From Candidatus Undinarchaeales archaeon (GTDB lineage Archaea > SpSt-1190 > JASMDC01): 64,000 nucleotides of DNA. Position numbers and translations under genes: made by a program. Positions 1 to 10,092 of this stretch are shown in pieces (positions within the stretch are counted from its first letter, which is position 1; every line of letters begins with the position of its first letter). The stretch lies in NCBI GenBank assembly GCA_030753015.1, contig JASMDC010000006.1, positions 62,001 through 126,000 on the forward strand. Reading direction: 5' to 3'. The notes under the pieces are model-generated. The model was given only the letters and a program-made list of their open reading frames with translations. It was not told the DNA's origin and made no database searches.

Positions 1-2118
1 CTCGCCCTGACGACCGCCATTGAGGTTACACCCGACGACTTTCTGCTGGAGGGTGCACGCGAGTGCGGACCCAAGACCACATGGAAGTGCCAGACCGGTG
101 AATCGATGGGCAGCTTGATCTTCGCCTACGCTCTTCGCTACAAGGAGACGGGTGAAGAGGCATACCTCACCGCCTTGCAGGAACTGCATGCGATGGGAAC
201 GTCGGACTGCGGACAGCACACCGGTTGGAACTGCGGTGCCGCCTGGCCTCAGACGTGGATGATGCTGGGATACGCGGCGGCCTACGAGGCCACAAACCTC
301 ACCGAGTTCAAGGAGGGTCTGGAGGGTCTGGCCGATTCCGGCTCCATCGACTGCGGTGGTAAGTTCGGTGGTCGATGTCGCGACGGCAAGATGCAGGGCT
401 TTACGATTCTTGCCTACACGACAGCCTACAAGGTCCTTGGCCGTGAGCAGGACCTCGCGATGGCCCGGGACCTCGGTGACAAGGGCTCGCTCGAGTGCGG
501 CCCCCGAGCTGGCTGGCAATGCAAGTACGGCTACTCACAGGGACCCTACATGCTGGGCTACGCACGTCTGTACGAGCTCACCGGTGAGGCGAGCTACCTG
601 GAGGCCCTGGAGGGGATGTTCCGCAAGGGCGCGTCCGAGTGCGGGCCGACCACGGGCTGGCGGTGCAACGATGCCGCCTCGGCAGCCTGGCTCACATATG
701 GTTACGTTCACGTGGTTGAACACCTGCACAACGAGACCCTCTTGACCATGGTGGACGAGCTGGTCCGCACCGGTTCGCGGGACTGTGGTCCCGACACTGG
801 ATGGAAGTGCGGGCTCGGCCAGAACCAGGCCATTTTCATCCAGGCATACATCAAGGCTGGCGAGCGCGAGCGCGAGTTCCTTGGATATGCTGACCAGATG
901 CGTGCGAAGGGCTCGTGGGACTGTGGTCCTGAGACAGGGACGCGGTGCGAGTTCGGTATAGATTGTGCTCTCATGAGCATCTCGTACGGGAACGCCACGA
1001 TCTTCGATGAGCTCTACACGTGCGAACCCGGTCGCGTGCTCTGTAATGAACAATGCGTAGAAGGTCTTCACATCCTCGGCGAGGGCGAATCCTGTGTGTG
1101 CAACGAGCAGTGTGACCACCTCGTATGCGTGGAGGGCACATGCTGTCCGGGCGACCGGTTCTGGTGCGCCGAGGCCGCAGCATGCGTGCTCCCCGCCCAG
1201 CCTGACGGCGCCTCTTGTTCCTGCGAGCGTCAGTGCGCAAGCGGTCTGTGCGTAGGCACCTGCGTCCAGCCGGCCACCGTTCAACGGGGCGAGGAGTGCA
1301 CTGTGGACGATGAGTGTGTTGATGGGCTCAAGTGCGTCGGTGGTACTTGCTACATCCCCGGTACATTGAAGACCAGCGATGAGTGCTTGGCGCATGCCGA
1401 GTGCCCTGGCATATGTGCCGATGGCCACTGCTGCGGTAAGGGGCAGACGTGGTGTGCTGATGAGGTTGCCTGTTATGACACCTGTCCGACGCCCACACCC
1501 CCACCTCCCACACCAACACCCGTCGAGCCCATCGAGGCCACGCCCGAGCCCACTCCTGAAGCGCCTACAAGCACACCGACCACGACGGACGCTGACGACA
1601 CGAAGCTCCCCACACAGACACCTGCCCCCTCTGCTGAACCCGAACCCCCGACCGACCAGGGGGATTCGTCGGTGGTGCTCCTTGGGATCCTTGCCCTTAT
1701 CCTTATCATCACCTACACCCAGCTCTCTGGTGGCCCCGAACGGCGCGCAGAGGAGGCGCCCGGCTCAGAGGTCGTGGTCGTCGCTCCCTCCGAGACGTTC
1801 GAACCCAAGGTCAAGATTAAGACCATGGGGGAATCGGCCGAAGAAGAATCGGAAGCGCTCCCGTCAGAGGAGAAAGAGGCACCCGAGATCGAACCTGAGA
1901 AGGTGTTTGAGAAGGAGACCAAGCCCCTACCGACACCTTCCGTCAAGGAGGAAGCGCCTGCCGCAAAGAAGAAGGCCCCCCAAAAGAAACCCACCAAGAA
2001 GAAGGCGGTAGCAAAGAAGGCGGCGCCCAAGAAGAAGGCCTCCACCAAGAAAACCGCTACGAAGAAAGCGGTCTCTAAGAAGAAGGCTTCGAAGAAGAGG
2101 ACCTCGAAGAAGAAGTAG
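1..2118 (+). CDS. Repeat-containing surface protein with H1-like lysine-rich tail, 5' truncated
   Basis: The reading frame is open from base 1, so the N-terminus (and any signal peptide) lies outside the window; 705 residues are visible. Residues 1 to about 330 hold seven repeats of about 48 residues, each opening with a G-S/A-x-D/E-C-G motif followed after about 5 residues by G-W-x-C and then a helix-rich stretch, suggesting a disulfide-stabilised alpha-helical repeat domain. A Cys-rich part follows (about 330-480, with repeated C-x3-C and C-C-x-G motifs), then a Pro/Thr-rich stalk, one hydrophobic helix (about 558-575), an acidic segment, and a final 50 residues that are mostly Lys, Ala and Thr. 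The layout implies an extracellular N-terminus and a cytoplasmic tail. The tail resembles the C-terminus of histone H1. The family is not recognised and the role unknown. Confidence 0.85.
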   Translation, partial: LALTTAIEVTPDDFLLEGARECGPKTTWKCQTGESMGSLIFAYALRYKETGEEAYLTALQELHAMGTSDCGQHTGWNCGAAWPQTWMMLGYAAAYEATNLTEFKEGLEGLADSGSIDCGGKFGGRCRDGKMQGFTILAYTTAYKVLGREQDLAMARDLGDKGSLECGPRAGWQCKYGYSQGPYMLGYARLYELTGEASYLEALEGMFRKGASECGPTTGWRCNDAASAAWLTYGYVHVVEHLHNETLLTMVDELVRTGSRDCGPDTGWKCGLGQNQAIFIQAYIKAGEREREFLGYADQMRAKGSWDCGPETGTRCEFGIDCALMSISYGNATIFDELYTCEPGRVLCNEQCVEGLHILGEGESCVCNEQCDHLVCVEGTCCPGDRFWCAEAAACVLPAQPDGASCSCERQCASGLCVGTCVQPATVQRGEECTVDDECVDGLKCVGGTCYIPGTLKTSDECLAHAECPGICADGHCCGKGQTWCADEVACYDTCPTPTPPPPTPTPVEPIEATPEPTPEAPTSTPTTTDADDTKLPTQTPAPSAEPEPPTDQGDSSVVLLGILALILIITYTQLSGGPERRAEEAPGSEVVVVAPSETFEPKVKIKTMGESAEEESEALPSEEKEAPEIEPEKVFEKETKPLPTPSVKEEAPAAKKKAPQKKPTKKKAVAKKAAPKKKASTKKTATKKAVSKKKASKKRTSKKK

Positions 2119-2543: not shown

Positions 2544-3473
2544 TCACGACTGGGAGAAGACCTCTCGTAGCACTTCGAGGTTGAGCCGACCGGCGCTGTA
2601 AACCTTTCCTGCAGCAAGGTCGTTGACCGTGACCTTGGCAGGGGCGAAGATGTCGTGATCCATCTTGTAGAAGTCCTTCCCCGCCTCCTTGAACAACTGC
2701 TCGAACCGCTTACCATAGCTCTTGGAGCCCGTGGAAACGACCTTGTCGGTGAGCTCCTGGCTGAAGCCGTCGATGAAGTACAGGTTGTCGCCCCCGTAGA
2801 TGAGGGAGTCGTTCGTGGCCCCCATGGCAGCAAGCCCCTTGTACACGGGTGCTAGCGGGGATACGCCGAAGGCCGAGACGACCTTCCGCACGTCGAACTT
2901 GAGCACGTCGAGCATCCGGAACGTGCCCATCTCGAGCGTCCGGCTCGCCAGCTGGACCGATGAGGTTATGCTGTCTGTCCGCGCCACGAGCATGTGGACA
3001 TCTCGTGGTTTGATACCACACTCCTCGGCGACCGTCCCCGCCACATCGTCACTCGGGAGCGAACTTGCTTCCAGGCAGAGCACAGCCACATCGTCGTCCT
3101 CGCGCTGACGGTCGATGACCTCGTACACGTCCTTGGGCTTGAGGGCCAGTGCCCTGGCCGGGCCCGAGCCCATACCGAAGAACTTACCCGCGACCACCTG
3201 CCATCCTGCCATCTGCGAGGCTATGGTGGCCGTCGTCGGGTGGTCGGTGCGAACCTCGACCACGGGGTACGTCAGGTCCTCCTCGTGTCTGGTTGACAGC
3301 TGAACCTCGGCGAGCCCCCCCATGGTGACCTTGGCGAACAGTAGCCCCGCCTGAACGCTCCCTTTCCATGTCACACCACAGTCGATTACCGTGGCGCCGC
3401 ATTCAAGTGTCTGGGTAGGGCACCTCTCCTTCAACTGCTCGACGAGCCCGAGGACGCTTTCGTTGAGTCCCAT
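2544..3473 (-). CDS. mch: Methenyl-H4MPT cyclohydrolase
   Basis: Catalyses the reversible hydrolysis of methenyl-H4MPT to formyl-H4MPT in the cytoplasm, the step between Ftr and Mtd. The 309 residues match the full length and character of archaeal Mch, including the N-terminal C-G-A-T-V-I-D-C-G-V segment, the G-x-G-S-G-P-A-R motif near residue 100, and the C-terminal segment around Y-G-G-D-N-L-Y. A GGAGGT site 9 bases before the ATG supports the start. It is the last C1-pathway gene of the long block, 21 bases after fmdC1. Confidence 0.95.
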   Translation of the reverse strand: MGLNESVLGLVEQLKERCPTQTLECGATVIDCGVTWKGSVQAGLLFAKVTMGGLAEVQLSTRHEEDLTYPVVEVRTDHPTTATIASQMAGWQVVAGKFFGMGSGPARALALKPKDVYEVIDRQREDDDVAVLCLEASSLPSDDVAGTVAEECGIKPRDVHMLVARTDSITSSVQLASRTLEMGTFRMLDVLKFDVRKVVSAFGVSPLAPVYKGLAAMGATNDSLIYGGDNLYFIDGFSQELTDKVVSTGSKSYGKRFEQLFKEAGKDFYKMDHDIFAPAKVTVNDLAAGKVYSAGRLNLEVLREVFSQS

Positions 3474-3494
3474 TATGTGAACCTCCCTGGTCCG

Positions 3495-4304
3495 TCATCC
3501 AGTCCGAACGAACACCTCGCCCTTTCCTTTACCGGAGATATCTCCTTCGTACCTGGCGAAGAGAGCTCCGATTTGCTCCTCTGCGAGCGGTAATCCGTTG
3601 CCTTTCAGCTGCTGCAGGAGCTCCCCGACGTGAGAGGGGCGATCGGTCCCTTGGGGGATGAACGTGGGGAGTAGCTGCGGGGGGGTGAGGGCGATGATGG
3701 TGCCCCCATCCATAGCGGCACCGGCCCGCCCGCCAAGAGCACCGAGGCACACGATGGTGCCACCGGTCATGAGCGTCCCAGCGAAGGTCCCCAAGCTACC
3801 TGCGACGGCGATCGTACCGCCGCACATCAGCTCCCCGACCTCATCGCCTGCGTTTCCTTCGATGATGATACTGCCGCCCGCCATACCGGTCTTCGAGCCC
3901 CGGTAGCCGGCCCCGGCGAGGTTGCCAGTGTTGCCCTTGACATGAATGAGGCCGTCCTTCATCTCGGCGCCGAGCCAGTCCCCGACATCTCCGTGGACGA
4001 CGATTCTACCGCCGTCCATCTCTGTGCCGAGGTGCATCCCGGCGTTCCCGTGGATGGTGATGAGGCCGGTGGTCATCCGTGCTCCGATGTGCTTGACCGC
4101 GCTGACATCGCCCTCGATGACGATCTCGTCCTCCTCGCCTGATGGATCGATCTCGAACAGCTGGCTCAGCGGCTTCCGCTTGTTCCCCCACAGCACCTCG
4201 AGCTTTCCCAGCTCCTTCGCGGGCCGGGCGGCGAAGACATCGGGTGATATGCATTCTGCCTCGACTGGTATCGTGAACGCGACCTTTGGTCTGAGAACGA
4301 CCAT
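3495..4304 (-). CDS. fmdC: Formylmethanofuran dehydrogenase subunit C, copy 1
   Basis: The beta-helical structural subunit of the enzyme that reduces CO2 to formylmethanofuran. Residues about 60-215 are a ladder of repeats of the form M-x-G-G-x-I-x-V-x-G, the fold shared with the C-terminal domain of glutamate synthase. The 269-residue length is normal. Its ATG follows the stop of fmdA1 with no gap, indicating translational coupling. It is clearly a diverged paralogue of the copy at 11542-12318. Whether this set uses Mo or W cannot be told from the sequence. Confidence 0.93.
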   Translation of the reverse strand: MVVLRPKVAFTIPVEAECISPDVFAARPAKELGKLEVLWGNKRKPLSQLFEIDPSGEEDEIVIEGDVSAVKHIGARMTTGLITIHGNAGMHLGTEMDGGRIVVHGDVGDWLGAEMKDGLIHVKGNTGNLAGAGYRGSKTGMAGGSIIIEGNAGDEVGELMCGGTIAVAGSLGTFAGTLMTGGTIVCLGALGGRAGAAMDGGTIIALTPPQLLPTFIPQGTDRPSHVGELLQQLKGNGLPLAEEQIGALFARYEGDISGKGKGEVFVRTG

Positions 4305-5924
4305 CTAGATCCCTCCGCACCGTACGGCTTCCCCACGCGGCAGGTACTCGGCCTGCACGGGGTAGTTTTCCAATGTCATCGTGTAGTACTTCGCGAACAC
4401 CTGACGGTCCTCGTCGGTGAGCTCTCCACCGGCGTCTATCCAGTAGGTCTTGCCCTCGGGTGTGGCGACCACCTCCCCGTTCTTCACGACGATCCTTCCG
4501 TCCTTGATCGTGTAGACCGTGCGTTTGAACGATCCCTCTATGTCGTCCTCCGAGAAACGGTAGATGGCCAGGTCGGCGTCGGCCCCGATACCGAGATGCC
4601 CCTTTCCCTTGAGCCCGAGCGTCTTGGCAGTGGCCGCTCGCGTGATCACAGCGATCTCATAGAGCGAGTACTCCCTATCGAGGCTCGCCAGTATCGCCCG
4701 AGCAGCCGCGGCCTTGTGGATCGTGCCAAGGGTGGTCTCTCGCTCCTTCTTGCTCATCAACCAAGAGATGATCTTCGGGTAGTGGTAGAATGGACCACCG
4801 TTGGGGTGGTCGGTTGTGAGGCTGACCTTCCACGGATCCGTGATCATGAGCGCGACCTCGAGCCCGATGGCCCATTGCACAGCGTTGACCGGGTTCCTCT
4901 CCAGGTACCGGTACGGGACGATGCCGGCCCCGGTCTCCATCTCTACGTCCGCGTTGATCCACTTGTTCCCTGTCAGCCGGTACAGGTGGTGCTGTGCGGG
5001 ACCGTCGGCGGTCATGGTGGTGGTCTCGTCGAACAGGACCTGTCCCATGTCACACGTCACGTGGTCACACCGGTTGATCAACTTCGCGATCTCGGCCATT
5101 CCGGAACCGAAGTCCTTCCATCCCTCGCCGGTGTATGCCTGGAACTGCAGGTGTGTGAGGTGGATCCTGTCCTTGACCGCGTTGATCGTCTCGATGGTGG
5201 TCTCGTAGTTACCGGGCATCCCCAGATTGTTGGCGTGCACGTGGATGGGGTGAGGAAGCCCCATCTCATCGTTCGCCCTGGCGAGGCCCGCAAGCACCTC
5301 CCGCGGTGTGACGTCGTAGTTGTCCACGGGATCGTCGAGGCTTTCCACGTCACGGCCCCACTTCCAGTTCTCCACGCCACCGGGATTCACAAGTTTCACC
5401 GCGTACCCCTTCGATGCACCCAGGAACCAGGCAATGGTGTTCTTGAGGTTCTCCCGATCCCCCTCCTTGATATAATGCATGACGAAGTGGTTATTTCCCA
5501 AGAGGGTGTAGGCGGCCTTGTCCAGGATGGGCGTGTCGTTCAGCTCCTCGTGCGTATGCCGGGCTGATAGCGGAGTGATCGCGGGCTCCATCACCGTCGT
5601 GTACCCCATGGTCGCGTAACGGTACCCCGTCACGTAGGTCGTCGGGATCGAGTACCCGGTCCCCGCGCGCGTGACCGCGGTCTTCGGTACCGGGTCCTTG
5701 CGATGGTCCTCCGGTCTGAACAACCGGCCAAGGTTCACCTTCCCTCCAGAGATGTGGGTGTGGATGTCAAGGCCGCCTGGAAAGACGATGAGACCCGTGG
5801 CATCGATGACTTTTCCCTTCGCCTCCTCGACGATCTTTCCGTCCTTGATGAAGATGTCCATCTTCTCCCCGTCGATCCCGTTCGCGGGATCGTACACGGT
5901 GCCGTTCTCTATGACCAGGCTCAT
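4305..5924 (-). CDS. fmdA: Formylmethanofuran dehydrogenase subunit A, copy 1 (amidohydrolase)
   Basis: The 539-residue metal-dependent amidohydrolase subunit, which condenses formate (made from CO2 in subunit B) with methanofuran. The zinc-binding H-T-H motif is at residues 55-57, and the family's R-P-E-D-H segment and the conserved T-D-H-P-N-G-G-P-F motif (about residue 370) are present. It starts four bases inside the end of the fmdD-fmdB fusion (ATGA overlap) and abuts fmdC1, so set 1 is one tightly coupled unit. The copy at 12315-13991 has the same motifs. Confidence 0.95.
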   Translation of the reverse strand: MSLVIENGTVYDPANGIDGEKMDIFIKDGKIVEEAKGKVIDATGLIVFPGGLDIHTHISGGKVNLGRLFRPEDHRKDPVPKTAVTRAGTGYSIPTTYVTGYRYATMGYTTVMEPAITPLSARHTHEELNDTPILDKAAYTLLGNNHFVMHYIKEGDRENLKNTIAWFLGASKGYAVKLVNPGGVENWKWGRDVESLDDPVDNYDVTPREVLAGLARANDEMGLPHPIHVHANNLGMPGNYETTIETINAVKDRIHLTHLQFQAYTGEGWKDFGSGMAEIAKLINRCDHVTCDMGQVLFDETTTMTADGPAQHHLYRLTGNKWINADVEMETGAGIVPYRYLERNPVNAVQWAIGLEVALMITDPWKVSLTTDHPNGGPFYHYPKIISWLMSKKERETTLGTIHKAAAARAILASLDREYSLYEIAVITRAATAKTLGLKGKGHLGIGADADLAIYRFSEDDIEGSFKRTVYTIKDGRIVVKNGEVVATPEGKTYWIDAGGELTDEDRQVFAKYYTMTLENYPVQAEYLPRGEAVRCGGI

Positions 5925-7651
5925 GATCTCACCCTCTCGATAATTTTCTCAAGAACTACCTTATCGGGCAGCTGGTCGGACTCGACCACCTTTCTAAGCC
6001 TGATAGGGATGCCGTCCATCCTGTAGGCTGTACCCTCGCACTCGATGCCGGCGATCGCTGAGGGGATCAGGACATCGGCGATGGACGAGGTGAGGTTGTG
6101 CTTCGGATCGATGATGATGGTGGGGATGTTCGCCAGATGCTCGACCGCTTCCCGTGGGAAGTGGGCGGCTGGGTCCGAGGAGATGATCAAAGCGGCATCG
6201 CACTCCTTTCGTGTCAGCATGTCGACGGCCGAGAACTCTCCCGGATTGTACACAGGGTAGCCTCGTGAGAGGTTGACAGCGAAAGGATAGCCTGTGATCC
6301 ACGTCATGACCGTGTTGATCCCCGTCACATTGTAATGGCCTCGCATAGGGAGGATGGTGAACTTCGTATGGTCGTTCAGGTCCCTGACCAGGCGTAGCGC
6401 CGCGTTGACGTTCATGTGGCGGCCCGCGGACATGGTGAGCCCCAGGCCGAAGAAGATGATCCCGAACTTGCAGCTCTTCATCCGCTCGGCCAGCTCCTTG
6501 ATGGTGCTGGCCGGGACACCGCCAACGTCACCCACGTCGTGCCCCTTGAGCGTGGCACGCAATGCGGATAGCAGCTCGTAGTCCTGGCCCTGCCTGACCT
6601 TGATGAACTGGTCCGCCAGCCGGTATGTATACTTCCATCGGGAGTCCACCTGGGAGGTCTTGGTCTCACGCACGTCCACGTGGACGATGGTGCGGTCCTT
6701 CCTTCCTTCAGTGGTGAACATGCCCTCGGGCGTTCCGGAATATCGTGTGATATGCCTGATGTGGGCCTCGGCGGGATTACATCCCCAGTAGACCACGAGG
6801 TCCGCCCGGTTCCGCACCTCACCGAGAGTGCACTTCGACACCCCGACGTCCTGAGCGGCCATCACGGTCGGTCCGTGGCACACGGAGGACGTGTTGTCGA
6901 TGGTCGCCCCGAGCAGTTCTGCGAGCTCGATGGCGCGCCGCTGGGCGTCGGACTCGGTGGAACTGAGGCCGTAGATCAGAGGGAAGTCCGCGCTTTTCAG
7001 GATCTCGGCGGCCTTGTCCAAGGCCTCATCGAGGGGAACGTCCACGAGCTTCCCCTTCTTCCTCACAGCGGGCTTCGCCCGGTCACGGTCCCAGTTGACG
7101 AATCTGCTCCTCGCGATGTCGCACCCCACCTCCATGTCCCTGACCATTCCTTTGCACATCACGAGCTCCACGTCGTCGCACAGGCAGCCGCAGAAGGGGC
7201 AGACAACGTCGGTCATGATCGACCGCTCGTCCTCGGGGGGGAGTGGAGGGGGAGGCGTCTGGTCGGGCGCTTGGGCGATCTTCTCCTTAAAAGGGAGAAG
7301 GTCGTTGAGCGTGGTCGGTCCGTCCTCGGTCTTCGAAAGCTCGATCCACACACCCTTGAACCGCGGCATACCGGTACCCCCGGTGTCCCCGCCGATGAGG
7401 GCGTTGGCCCAAGGGCCTACTGGTATGAACACGTTGCCCCGGTCGAGCTGGCCTTTACTTGCCCGGACCACCACCGAACCTGATCCCGTGGTAATCTTGA
7501 CCGGAGCGTTCTCCGTGATACCCAGGTCATCCATGTCATCCCCGTTCATGAACGCCACGGCAACCTCCTCGTAGTACTCCGACGAGGTCTTTCCGACCTC
7601 GAGGGCAATACCCTGACCGACCGTCCTGCCCGTGTTCAACATGCATCTCAT
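5921..7651 (-). CDS. fmdDB: Formylmethanofuran dehydrogenase subunits D and B fused, copy 1
   Basis: A 576-residue fusion. Residues 1 to about 125 match FmdD, the molybdopterin-dinucleotide-binding C-terminal piece (with V-G-P-W-A-N-A-L-I). A linker of about 18 residues, rich in Pro, follows. Residues 146-576 match FmdB, the CO2-reducing molybdopterin subunit: C-P-F-C-G-C-L-C binds a [4Fe-4S] cluster, and Cys258 in S-V-C-H-G-P is the expected Mo/W ligand (Cys, not selenocysteine). In copy 2 the same parts are separate genes in the same order. Met146 could be a second start, with GAGG upstream. A run of 7 G at 7235-7241 near the junction makes an assembly frameshift worth excluding. It overlaps the HdrA stop by one base. 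Confidence 0.9.
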   Translation of the reverse strand: MRCMLNTGRTVGQGIALEVGKTSSEYYEEVAVAFMNGDDMDDLGITENAPVKITTGSGSVVVRASKGQLDRGNVFIPVGPWANALIGGDTGGTGMPRFKGVWIELSKTEDGPTTLNDLLPFKEKIAQAPDQTPPPPLPPEDERSIMTDVVCPFCGCLCDDVELVMCKGMVRDMEVGCDIARSRFVNWDRDRAKPAVRKKGKLVDVPLDEALDKAAEILKSADFPLIYGLSSTESDAQRRAIELAELLGATIDNTSSVCHGPTVMAAQDVGVSKCTLGEVRNRADLVVYWGCNPAEAHIRHITRYSGTPEGMFTTEGRKDRTIVHVDVRETKTSQVDSRWKYTYRLADQFIKVRQGQDYELLSALRATLKGHDVGDVGGVPASTIKELAERMKSCKFGIIFFGLGLTMSAGRHMNVNAALRLVRDLNDHTKFTILPMRGHYNVTGINTVMTWITGYPFAVNLSRGYPVYNPGEFSAVDMLTRKECDAALIISSDPAAHFPREAVEHLANIPTIIIDPKHNLTSSIADVLIPSAIAGIECEGTAYRMDGIPIRLRKVVESDQLPDKVVLEKIIERVRS

Positions 7652-10092
7652 CAGTCACCACCTCCTAGGGCTTTCTCGAAGGCTTTCTTCGTCTTGTCCA
7701 GTTCTTCCTTCGTCACGTTCTCGACGATGGTATGCATCTGTTCGATCGTGTCAGCGAACATCTGGCCCTCGGCGGCGGAGAACCATCCCAGGTGCAACCG
7801 GTTCTTGTCAAGACCCAGCTTATCCATCCTCTTCCAGAAGCGCTCCACACGCTTCTTGGCATAATGATTGGCGTCGATGTAGTGACAGTCGCCGATGTGG
7901 CAGCCCGAGACGAGCACCGTGGCGACCCCCCGTGCGAAGGCCCGCTCGATGAACTTCTTGGCCATCCTCCCCGAGCACATCATCCTGATTATGCGCACGC
8001 TGGTGGGGTACTGCATCCGGCTCACTCCCGCGAAGTCCGCTCCCGCATAGGAGCACCAGTTGCAGCAGAACGCCAGGATCTTCTTGTCGGCGTCCTCCGC
8101 GGTGGCCGCGTCGATCTGGGAGAAGATCTGCTCGTCGGTGAAGTGGCGCATGACCAAGGCGGCTGAGGGACATTCCGCTCCGCAGGTGCCGCACCCGTGG
8201 CACGCGGCCTCGATGATCGTAATCTTCTTAGTCTTCTTGTCGAAGGCGATGGCGTTGTAGGGGCAGACCTTGGCGCACAGGCCGCAACCTATGCACTTCT
8301 CGTCGATCAGCTTCGGCGTGATTGCCTCCACCTTCACCTTTCCCTTGGCCATGAGGATGCTCGCGCGGGCAGCCGCGGCGCTGGCCTGGGTCACACTGTC
8401 CTTGATGGCCTTGGGTGATTCTGCGGTCCCGGCGAAGAAGATACCGCCGGTGGGCGCGTCCACCGGCCGGAGCTGTGGGTGCGCTTCCATGAAGAATCCG
8501 TCCGCGGTCCGGGACAGGTTGAAGAGGCGCTGGATCTTGTCGGCGTCCTCCCCGGGCTTCAGACCGATGGACAGGATCACCATCCCTGTGTCGATCTGGT
8601 ACAACTCCTTTTGAAGGGTGTTCTCTCCGACTAGACGCAGGTCCCCTCCCTTGCGCTCGAAGATCTCGGCGGGTAGCCCGCGGATGAATATAACGCCCGC
8701 GGCCTTCGCCCGCCTGAAGAGGTCCTCGTATCCCTTGCCGAAGCACCGCATGTCCACGAAGAACACGTAGATCTTGGTGTCAGGCCAGTGCTCCTTGATG
8801 AGCAGGGCGTCCTTGATGGAGTTCATGCAGCATACGCTGCTGCAGTAGGGCAGGCCGCATTTCTCGGATCGCGAGCCCACGCACTGGACGAACGCCACCG
8901 ACTCCGGTATCGCCCGGTCGCTGGGCCGTATCAGATGACCTCCGGAAGGCCCGCCGGCGTTGATCAGGCGCTCGAACTCAAGCGATGTAAGGACGTTCGG
9001 GAACCGACCGTAGCCGTACATCTTCAGGGGAGAGGGATCGTACACATCCGCGCCGGTTGCGATGATGACGGTGCCCACATCGAGTTCGACCTTCTCGGGC
9101 TCCTGCCGGAGGTCGATCACCCCCGCACCCGAGGCCTTGCACACCCTCACGCATTCGTGGCACCGTATGCAGCTGTCCATGTCCACGATAAAGGTCGATG
9201 GCACTGCCTGGGCGAAGGGCGTGTAGATGGCCTTCCGCGGGGCGAAGCCTGTGTCGAACTTGTTGGGGACCTGGACCGGGCAAACCTTGGCGCAGTCCCC
9301 GCAGGCCTTGCACTCCTCCACGACGTACCGGGGCCTCTTCAGGACCGTCGCCGTGAAGTTCCCGATGTACCCTTTAACGTCAACGACCTCGCTGTTGGCC
9401 ATGAGCTCGATGTTCGGGTGTCGGCCCACGTCGGACATCACCGGCGCGAGGATGCAGATGGAGCAGTCCAGTGTGGGGAAGGTCTTGTCGATCTGGGCCA
9501 TCCTGCCCCCGATGCTGGGCTCCTTCTCCACGAGGTAGACCTTGTATCCTGTGTCAGCTAGGTCGAGAGCGGCCTGTAGCCCGGCGACCCCGCCACCGAC
9601 GATCAGGGTCTTCCTTATCACGGGGACCTCGAGCTCCACCTGGGGCCTGAGCAGGGATACCTTGGCCACCGCCATCCTGACCAGATCCTTGGCTTTCTGG
9701 GTGCCTTTCTCCTTCTCATATAGGTGGACCCAGCTGCAGTGGTCCCGAATGTTGGCCATCTCAAACAGGTATTTGTTCAACCCGGCCGCCTCACAGGCCT
9801 TTCGGAAGGTGGGCTCGTGGAGACGGGGGGTGCAGGATGCGACAACGACCCTGTTCAATTTTTCCTCCTTGATGTCGGTCCTGATTTCATCCTGCCCCGG
9901 GTCCGAGCAGCAGTACCTGTTGGTCTTCGCAACGACGACGTTCGGGAGCGTGGACGCGAACTTGGCGACGCCCTCAACGTCAACGGACCCGGCGATGTTC
10001 AGACCGCAGTGGCACACGAACACGCCCACTCGGATCTCGTTGTCATCACTGGAGGGTTCAGATGTCTTCTTGCTCGCTTTTCCTTTTGCCAC
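7651..10092 (-). CDS. hdrA: HdrA-MvhD fusion, flavin-based electron-bifurcating subunit
   Basis: An 813-residue soluble iron-sulfur flavoprotein. Residues 1-150 are the HdrA N-terminal domain (V-C-H-C-G at 26-30). A thioredoxin-reductase-like FAD domain starts at G-G-G-V-A-G (166-171), with the HdrA-specific T-L-D-C-S-I-C-I-L-A-P segment at about 207. Ferredoxin-type clusters sit at 261-271 and 308-318, and two more at about 600-650. The last 130 residues are MvhD/FlpD-like: C-C-N-W-C-S-Y-A-G, M-C-S-G-R and G-C-H-I-G-D-C-H-Y. HdrA carries the bifurcating FAD and MvhD the entry [2Fe-2S] site. Start is GTG. It sits between the HdrC-GltD fusion (5-base gap) and fmdDB, so it probably supplies electrons to formylmethanofuran dehydrogenase. 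Confidence 0.93.
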   Translation of the reverse strand: MAKGKASKKTSEPSSDDNEIRVGVFVCHCGLNIAGSVDVEGVAKFASTLPNVVVAKTNRYCCSDPGQDEIRTDIKEEKLNRVVVASCTPRLHEPTFRKACEAAGLNKYLFEMANIRDHCSWVHLYEKEKGTQKAKDLVRMAVAKVSLLRPQVELEVPVIRKTLIVGGGVAGLQAALDLADTGYKVYLVEKEPSIGGRMAQIDKTFPTLDCSICILAPVMSDVGRHPNIELMANSEVVDVKGYIGNFTATVLKRPRYVVEECKACGDCAKVCPVQVPNKFDTGFAPRKAIYTPFAQAVPSTFIVDMDSCIRCHECVRVCKASGAGVIDLRQEPEKVELDVGTVIIATGADVYDPSPLKMYGYGRFPNVLTSLEFERLINAGGPSGGHLIRPSDRAIPESVAFVQCVGSRSEKCGLPYCSSVCCMNSIKDALLIKEHWPDTKIYVFFVDMRCFGKGYEDLFRRAKAAGVIFIRGLPAEIFERKGGDLRLVGENTLQKELYQIDTGMVILSIGLKPGEDADKIQRLFNLSRTADGFFMEAHPQLRPVDAPTGGIFFAGTAESPKAIKDSVTQASAAAARASILMAKGKVKVEAITPKLIDEKCIGCGLCAKVCPYNAIAFDKKTKKITIIEAACHGCGTCGAECPSAALVMRHFTDEQIFSQIDAATAEDADKKILAFCCNWCSYAGADFAGVSRMQYPTSVRIIRMMCSGRMAKKFIERAFARGVATVLVSGCHIGDCHYIDANHYAKKRVERFWKRMDKLGLDKNRLHLGWFSAAEGQMFADTIEQMHTIVENVTKEELDKTKKAFEKALGGGD

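Follow-up and report, generated by a model that had tools for sequence, protein, structure and literature searches.

The gene at the start of the window (by which we mean the whole 64,000-nucleotide stretch analysed, G000:C84:62001-126000) raises the question of why a protein with an array of regular Cys-patterned repeats should end, beyond a membrane helix, in a Lys-rich tract resembling the tail of histone H1, and what such a tract might hold on to. The frame (positions 1-2118, forward strand) is open up to the first base of the window. Its missing 5' end, which the earlier note had proposed to recover, was found on the same contig of this archaeal genome (3.85 Mb in 117 contigs): the complete gene (L008:9953-12118) encodes 721 amino acids from an ATG 48 bases upstream of the window start, and the N-terminus, MVPDHRLFTVMALVCMLALTTA, contains a clear signal peptide. 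The Lys codons of the tail (22 AAG and 3 AAA) follow the preference of the genome (88% AAG), as would be expected if the tail frame is translated. The upstream neighbour (L008:9284-9913), on the same strand and separated by a short gap, is likewise a membrane-protein gene, its product combining Cys repeats with a hairpin motif on the cytoplasmic side. From the other side, genes on the minus strand at window positions 2544-10092 converge on the 721-aa gene, and were assigned, by reading their translations without a family search, to methanopterin C1 metabolism and HdrA (mch-like, formylmethanofuran dehydrogenase subunit and HdrA genes). The genome itself is large for its phylum, the nine other genomes of which (G001-G009) measure 0.6-1.1 Mb.

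The anatomy of the protein, the side on which its tail lies, the family of its head and the spread of the Lys-rich tracts, as described below, are read from sequence; the features of the protein are listed in table 1.

Table 1. Features of the 721-aa protein mapped on the window.
Feature	Window position	Strand	Basis or remark
Signal peptide, last six codons (residues 17-22)	1..18	+	residues 1-16 upstream, L008:9953-10000
Repeat 1 (C38-D85)	64..207	+	helical hairpin in both structure models
Repeat 2 (C86-D133)	208..351	+	repeat list; both structure models
Repeat 3 (C134-E181)	352..495	+	repeat list; both structure models
Repeat 4 (C182-E229)	496..639	+	repeat list; both structure models
Repeat 5 (C230-D277)	640..783	+	single-sequence model; AlphaFold2 model with relatives poor here
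Repeat 6 (C278-D323)	784..921	+	repeat list; single-sequence model
Repeat 7, short (C324-C357), predicted to close the alpha/alpha toroid	922..1023	+	repeat list; single-sequence model
Cys-rich neck (C357-C511)	1021..1485	+	kin neck in C38 protein, same genome
Pro/Thr stalk (residues 512-571)	1486..1665	+	sequence
Single membrane helix (residues 572-591)	1666..1725	+	hydropathy
Acidic cytoplasmic stretch (residues 592-667, 76 residues, net -11)	1726..1953	+	charge count
Lys-rich tail (residues 668-721, 25 Lys/54, net +26)	1954..2115	+	imperfect 63-base DNA repeat
Stop codon	2116-2118	+	

The order of neck, stalk, single helix, acidic stretch and a Lys-rich tail of about 50 residues, as described in the earlier note, is borne out. 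Its seven repeats of about 48 residues also stand, with starts at C38, 86, 134, 182, 230, 278 and 324 (spacing 48, 48, 48, 48, 48 and 46, the seventh repeat being short), but the supposedly fixed G-W-x-C pattern proved looser: C-G and a second Cys at +8 occur in all seven repeats, whereas Trp is in place in five and the full G-W-x-C in four. The self-match of the sequence peaks at offsets of 96 (0.27) and 48 residues (0.23), compared with a maximum of 0.14 over 2000 shuffles, and the repeat passes no Pfam or NCBIfam cut-off. All 44 Cys residues of the protein lie N-terminal of the membrane helix and none after it, and C-x7-C disulphides would pin the repeat hairpins. The cytoplasmic part is probably disordered.

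Hydropathy reveals only two hydrophobic segments, the signal peptide and the helix, and the protein is thus predicted to be a type I single-pass membrane protein with its positive end inside, a topology based on hydropathy and charge rather than on a trained predictor or signal-peptide program. As only one helix follows the signal peptide, the Lys-rich tail should be cytoplasmic; neither an extracellular tail nor a lack of the signal peptide was found, in keeping with the cytoplasmic position supposed in the earlier note. For comparison, the extracellular and cytoplasmic parts of 62 proteins that have a signal peptide or a single anchor were counted separately; these proteins come from a 581-kb genome sample (456 mechanically called ORFs). 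At least 12 Lys in 40 residues occur nowhere in their extracellular parts (22,584 aa), and in the cytoplasmic parts (3,497 aa) of two of the 62, namely the 721-aa protein and L009:1279-3438. Of 17 type I candidates in the sample, 2 have Lys-rich tails, a rate biased by the partly hit-based choice of loci, and the number of type I candidates depends on the hydropathy threshold; the same threshold missed the signal peptide of the L134 protein, which was recognised by eye.

As to the head, a Pfam scan at E up to 1 listed only GH88 (20.6 bits against a cut-off of 26.6) and GH76 (15.7 bits against 25.9), both under the curated cut-offs. A profile of five paralogues from the same genome matched 4mu9 in the PDB at 2.4e-6, an entry described by its depositors as a glycoside hydrolase, with weak matches to GH76, six-hairpin glycosidase and epimerase entries, and a profile including relatives from elsewhere matched GH76 at 4.6e-4. 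An AlphaFold2 model built with 12 rows of relatives (mean pLDDT 60.6, pTM 0.63) has 6shm as its best Foldseek match (1.9e-4); with VIA-align it superimposes on 6shd with Z 20.4 over 269 residues at 3.5 Å, and epimerases and GH88 enzymes score near this. The second half of this model is poor, probably because six-hairpin relatives were aligned to seven hairpins. A single-sequence model made without any alignment (mean pLDDT 48.1) displays seven hairpins at 48-residue steps; VIA-align again places GH76 first (Z 15.4, 260 residues, 5.3 Å), this Z being slightly above the level of 13 where the program warns about helical repeats, and Foldseek finds no match at E up to 0.001. Both models are weak in confidence. 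Repeats 1-4 nevertheless form helical hairpins in both of them, and repeats 5-7 do so in the single-sequence model, which provides the fold that the earlier note had wished to see predicted. An alpha/alpha toroid with the glycosidase/epimerase fold is thus the very probable structure of the head, and the nearest solved folds to the modelled head are those of GH76 mannanases.

A fold of this kind could belong to an active glycoside hydrolase (GH76- or GH88-like) at the cell surface, with the tail incidental to its function. The toroid and the weak profile matches speak for such an enzyme, as does the C95 paralogue, whose GH76 score of 25.9 bits equals the printed cut-off; we nevertheless consider it unlikely, given that both scores of the 721-aa protein itself miss their cut-offs and that the expected catalytic residues are not apparent. 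The titles of GH76 entries name Asp136 and Asp137 as the residues changed to inactivate the enzyme; in the 721-aa protein, Asp-Asp pairs occur at 28, 452 and 548 only; as judged by sequence position, none falls between residues 30 and 450 and none lies within the repeats. Nor is any Asp or Glu invariant in the alignment of the five paralogues. Because the curated cut-offs are missed and no acid is invariant, a glycan-binding or otherwise non-catalytic head appears likelier than an enzyme, although an active site hidden from the alignments could exist. The fold and the lack of conserved acids point to glycan as the most likely ligand of the head, whether displayed on other cells or on the coat of the cell itself.

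The head belongs to a family represented in its own genome by genes on C84 (the 721-aa gene), C62 and C95 and by two neighbours on C43, with weaker members on C33 and C52. A second repeat family, with the pattern C..I....RD.C, is found at L008:9284-9913, L019:10750-11685, L020:5673-6518, L140:2214-3224, L025:2796-4367 and L076:14205-15179, and a member adjoins or lies within two genes of the toroid genes on C84, C43 and C95. The head was found in none of the nine other genomes of the phylum (ten including its own); an archaeal search at E up to 1e-5 matched 12 of 393 genomes besides its own (13 of 394 in all). A scan of genome contigs with the single protein returned 16 stretches, none of them confirmed, and a search with the Cys-hairpin pattern led to seven confirmed loci among 55 stretches (L063-L069, two records titled only 'archaeon' being among their sources). 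The repeat sought in other archaea is thus present in Nanohalarchaeota, Nanoarchaeota and Aenigmatarchaeota, with profile E values of 1.5e-13 to 3.8e-43. These relatives possess one or two toroid arrays in 863 (open at the locus edge) to 2383 residues, with what reads as beta-rich parts between the arrays, and the five with a C-terminal helix bear tails of 86-282 residues, in which no KKAxAKK-type tract occurs in the stretch examined. No family name for these large DPANN surface proteins was found here. Because the head has relatives in Nanohalarchaeota, SPEARE proteins, which carry a cytoplasmic VirB4/TraG-like ATPase domain (PMC10266531; PMC6642349), were considered as an identity for the 721-aa protein and rejected, since it has no such ATPase; its cytoplasmic part (130 residues, net +15) gives no Pfam match.

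What remains is the tail. Besides its 25 Lys it contains 12 Ala, 5 Thr, 4 Pro and 4 Ser in 54 residues; at the 4.2% Lys of the sampled proteome, the binomial chance of at least 25 Lys in 54 is 1.6e-20, and within the 581-kb sample no other stretch of this length in any of the 456 ORFs is as rich in Lys (the L134 protein, outside that sample, reaches 27). The tails of the five clear members of the head family in this genome differ: SRRRS; NK; an acidic tail with Tyr; an acidic tail with a RecX-like hairpin; and the Lys-rich tail of the 721-aa protein. We therefore rejected the Lys-rich tail as a family trait, it being absent from the four close paralogues; translations of the distant members on C33 and C52 likewise lack a KKAxAKK-type tract, the C52 protein having a Lys/Arg-containing linker. 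The same pattern is seen in a pair of proteins from another family, L009:1279-3438 and L019:835-2706 (31% identical over 544 columns): the latter stops at VIKGVE, whereas the former continues from VIKGVD into a Lys-rich extension. RecX-like helical hairpin modules, also placed in the tails of membrane proteins, were noticed at L037:2771-4561, L008:9284-9913, L019:6069-9509, L084:7709-8905 and L088:8807-9457; the L037 hairpin scores 25.2 bits against Pfam RecX_HTH1 (cut-off 26), and the module occurs on unrelated membrane proteins.

Used as a protein query in its own genome, the tail returned only itself, since low complexity defeats such a search, and the tracts were therefore counted as the DNA pattern of KK[A/P/T/S]xxKK, with the reversed pattern as control. 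The genome contains 73 sites against 11 for the control, an excess of 62 that is the largest among 101 archaeal genomes, the next being 17. ORFs read at the sites in fetched stretches gave 32 rows, 18 of them Lys-rich (two sites or more, or a minimum of 16 Lys in 54 residues). Since in two cases a pair of contig ends seems to hold the halves of one gene, these rows were counted as 16 genes. The 16 comprise six proteins of the ribosome or RNA polymerase, five membrane proteins and five other soluble proteins. The first group consists of uL5 (L023:2462-3271), eL31 (L079:10222-10854), eS24 (L080:68-601), uL29 (L128:2-357), uS7 (L123:839-1867) and RNA polymerase A'' (L123:3034-4506), all with long Lys-rich extensions; as these were found via pattern sites, their number does not show how common such extensions are on ribosomal proteins in general. 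The membrane carriers, in addition to the 721-aa protein, are a surface protein that by eye is type I and has 27 Lys in 54 residues of its cytoplasmic tail (L134:766-2526), a protein with thioredoxin/DSBA domains outside and an N-terminal tract (L024), one with a Cys-repeat ectodomain and an N-terminal tract (L140), and a protein of 163 residues with two helices, in which the side of the tract is ambiguous (L126:2182-2673). In this last protein, as in the 721-aa protein, the acidic part comes before the basic one: a poly-Glu stretch precedes a KKKAAPKKK tail. The five other soluble carriers are a CpXC protein, a DUF7121 protein and three without a Pfam family.

These data bear on the idea put forward in the earlier note, that an H1-like tail ties a surface protein to the chromosome. 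The likeness is one of composition, the tail being Lys/Ala/Pro-rich and C-terminal as in H1; it lies on the predicted cytoplasmic side, and the genome does have histones. The globular winged-helix domain of linker histone H1 corresponds to Pfam Linker_histone, and neither a linker-histone nor an HC1/HC2 model gave a match at E up to 1. The closest paralogues are without the tail, those carriers with a nameable nucleic-acid function work in translation (five ribosomal proteins) and transcription (an RNA polymerase subunit), and the two histone genes found in the genome have no such tract. The likeness to H1 thus does not extend beyond composition. The wider suggestion of the note, that the tail could bind DNA, RNA or acidic lipid, may still hold. 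A Myxococcus chemoreceptor with a histone-like basic tail does bind the nucleoid (PMC5716589), but for the 721-aa protein the chromosome would be just one polyanion among several that the tail could target, and it is not preferred over the others; chromosome specificity is unsupported here, and this special case, with little extra in its favour, seems quite unlikely.

A more general explanation fits better. The signal peptide would export the N-terminal part of the protein, where seven disulphide-pinned helical hairpins would close into a toroid whose most likely role is to bind, not cleave, a glycan or glycoprotein; the Cys-rich neck and the Pro/Thr stalk would hold this head off the membrane, in which the one helix provides the anchor. 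On the cytoplasmic side, the acidic spacer would be followed by the Lys-rich tract, both probably disordered, the tract being an optional appendage typical of this genome and most likely serving as a grip on polyanions without sequence specificity (RNA or ribosomes, perhaps also DNA), by which the protein is held or positioned from the inner side. Within the same molecule, the charge of the tract may be offset by the acidic stretch. Because six of the 16 carriers act on RNA or DNA, and because published basic tails anchor proteins to the nucleoid or the ribosome, a polyanion grip is the best reading, to which we would give roughly even chances.

Next to it comes a neutral or merely topological low-complexity tail, arisen by codon-repeat slippage in this lineage; on membrane proteins its only effect would be to help keep the positive end inside or to contact the head groups of acidic lipids. 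The tail is indeed optional in two sets of paralogues, its DNA contains imperfect tandem repeats, and the carriers are many and unrelated; the five soluble ones, without a known nucleic-acid role here, mean that the tract could be neutral. As the head is absent from the nine other genomes of the phylum, there is no orthologue in which conservation of the tail could show. On the other hand, synonymous codons vary within the tail, which is therefore not a product of fresh slippage, and a neutral spread would not obviously favour proteins of the ribosome and RNA polymerase; we regard such an origin as somewhat doubtful. Far more speculative, and very improbable in our estimate, is a shared Lys-rich address that gathers surface proteins, ribosomes and polymerase on a common polyanion (RNA, DNA or polyphosphate), each surface receptor having one of a set of interchangeable tails (a Lys-rich one, an acidic/Tyr-rich one, one with RecX-like hairpins, or next to no tail); if true, it would constitute a sequence-encoded link between the cell surface and gene expression.

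Our analyses place a repeat that lies below all Pfam and NCBIfam cut-offs, and that several archaeal lineages have in common, in a family with a probable fold. They also sharpen the question of the tail, namely why one archaeon has Lys-rich tracts at the cytoplasmic ends of surface proteins as well as on its ribosome and its polymerase. Should the tails bind the nucleoid or ribosomes, the surface would be physically tied to gene expression; if they do not, the tracts would represent a neutral spread of low-complexity sequence.

No archaeal membrane protein with a Lys-rich tail at the nucleoid was found in the literature, the coverage of which largely excludes subscription journals, so that this is not proof of absence, but parts of the 721-aa protein have counterparts in known systems. 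The modelled head shares its fold with GH76 alpha-1,6-mannanases, GH88 enzymes and AGE, as indicated by the 6shd superposition and the PDB profile matches, and differs from them in its regular 48-residue repeats with C-x7-C, its seven hairpins, the lack of an Asp-Asp pair, scores below the cut-offs and its attachment to the membrane. The proteins from Nanohalarchaeota, Nanoarchaeota and Aenigmatarchaeota have homologous Cys-hairpin arrays and differ in their tails. Among proteins with a comparable tail, AlgP and PhaF of Pseudomonas possess Lys/Ala/Pro-rich, disordered, H1-like KPAA tails, whose suggested role is to attach granules to the nucleoid (PMC9239181); they are, however, intracellular and granule-associated, whereas the 721-aa protein is predicted to sit at the surface and DNA is a candidate ligand of its tail. 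A Methanoperedens plasmid protein with an H1-like C-terminal region (PMC9674854) is not a surface receptor. Alb3, YidC and Oxa1 are membrane proteins whose basic C terminus is disordered and faces the ribosome (PMC8733628); they are built on a five-helix insertase core, unlike the 721-aa protein with its one helix besides the signal peptide. FrzCD of Myxococcus, finally, is a receptor that combines a basic, histone-like, nucleoid-associated tail with a more acidic region beside it (PMC5716589); it is a cytoplasmic receptor free of the membrane, and its basic tail is N-terminal, in contrast to the C-terminal tail of the 721-aa protein.
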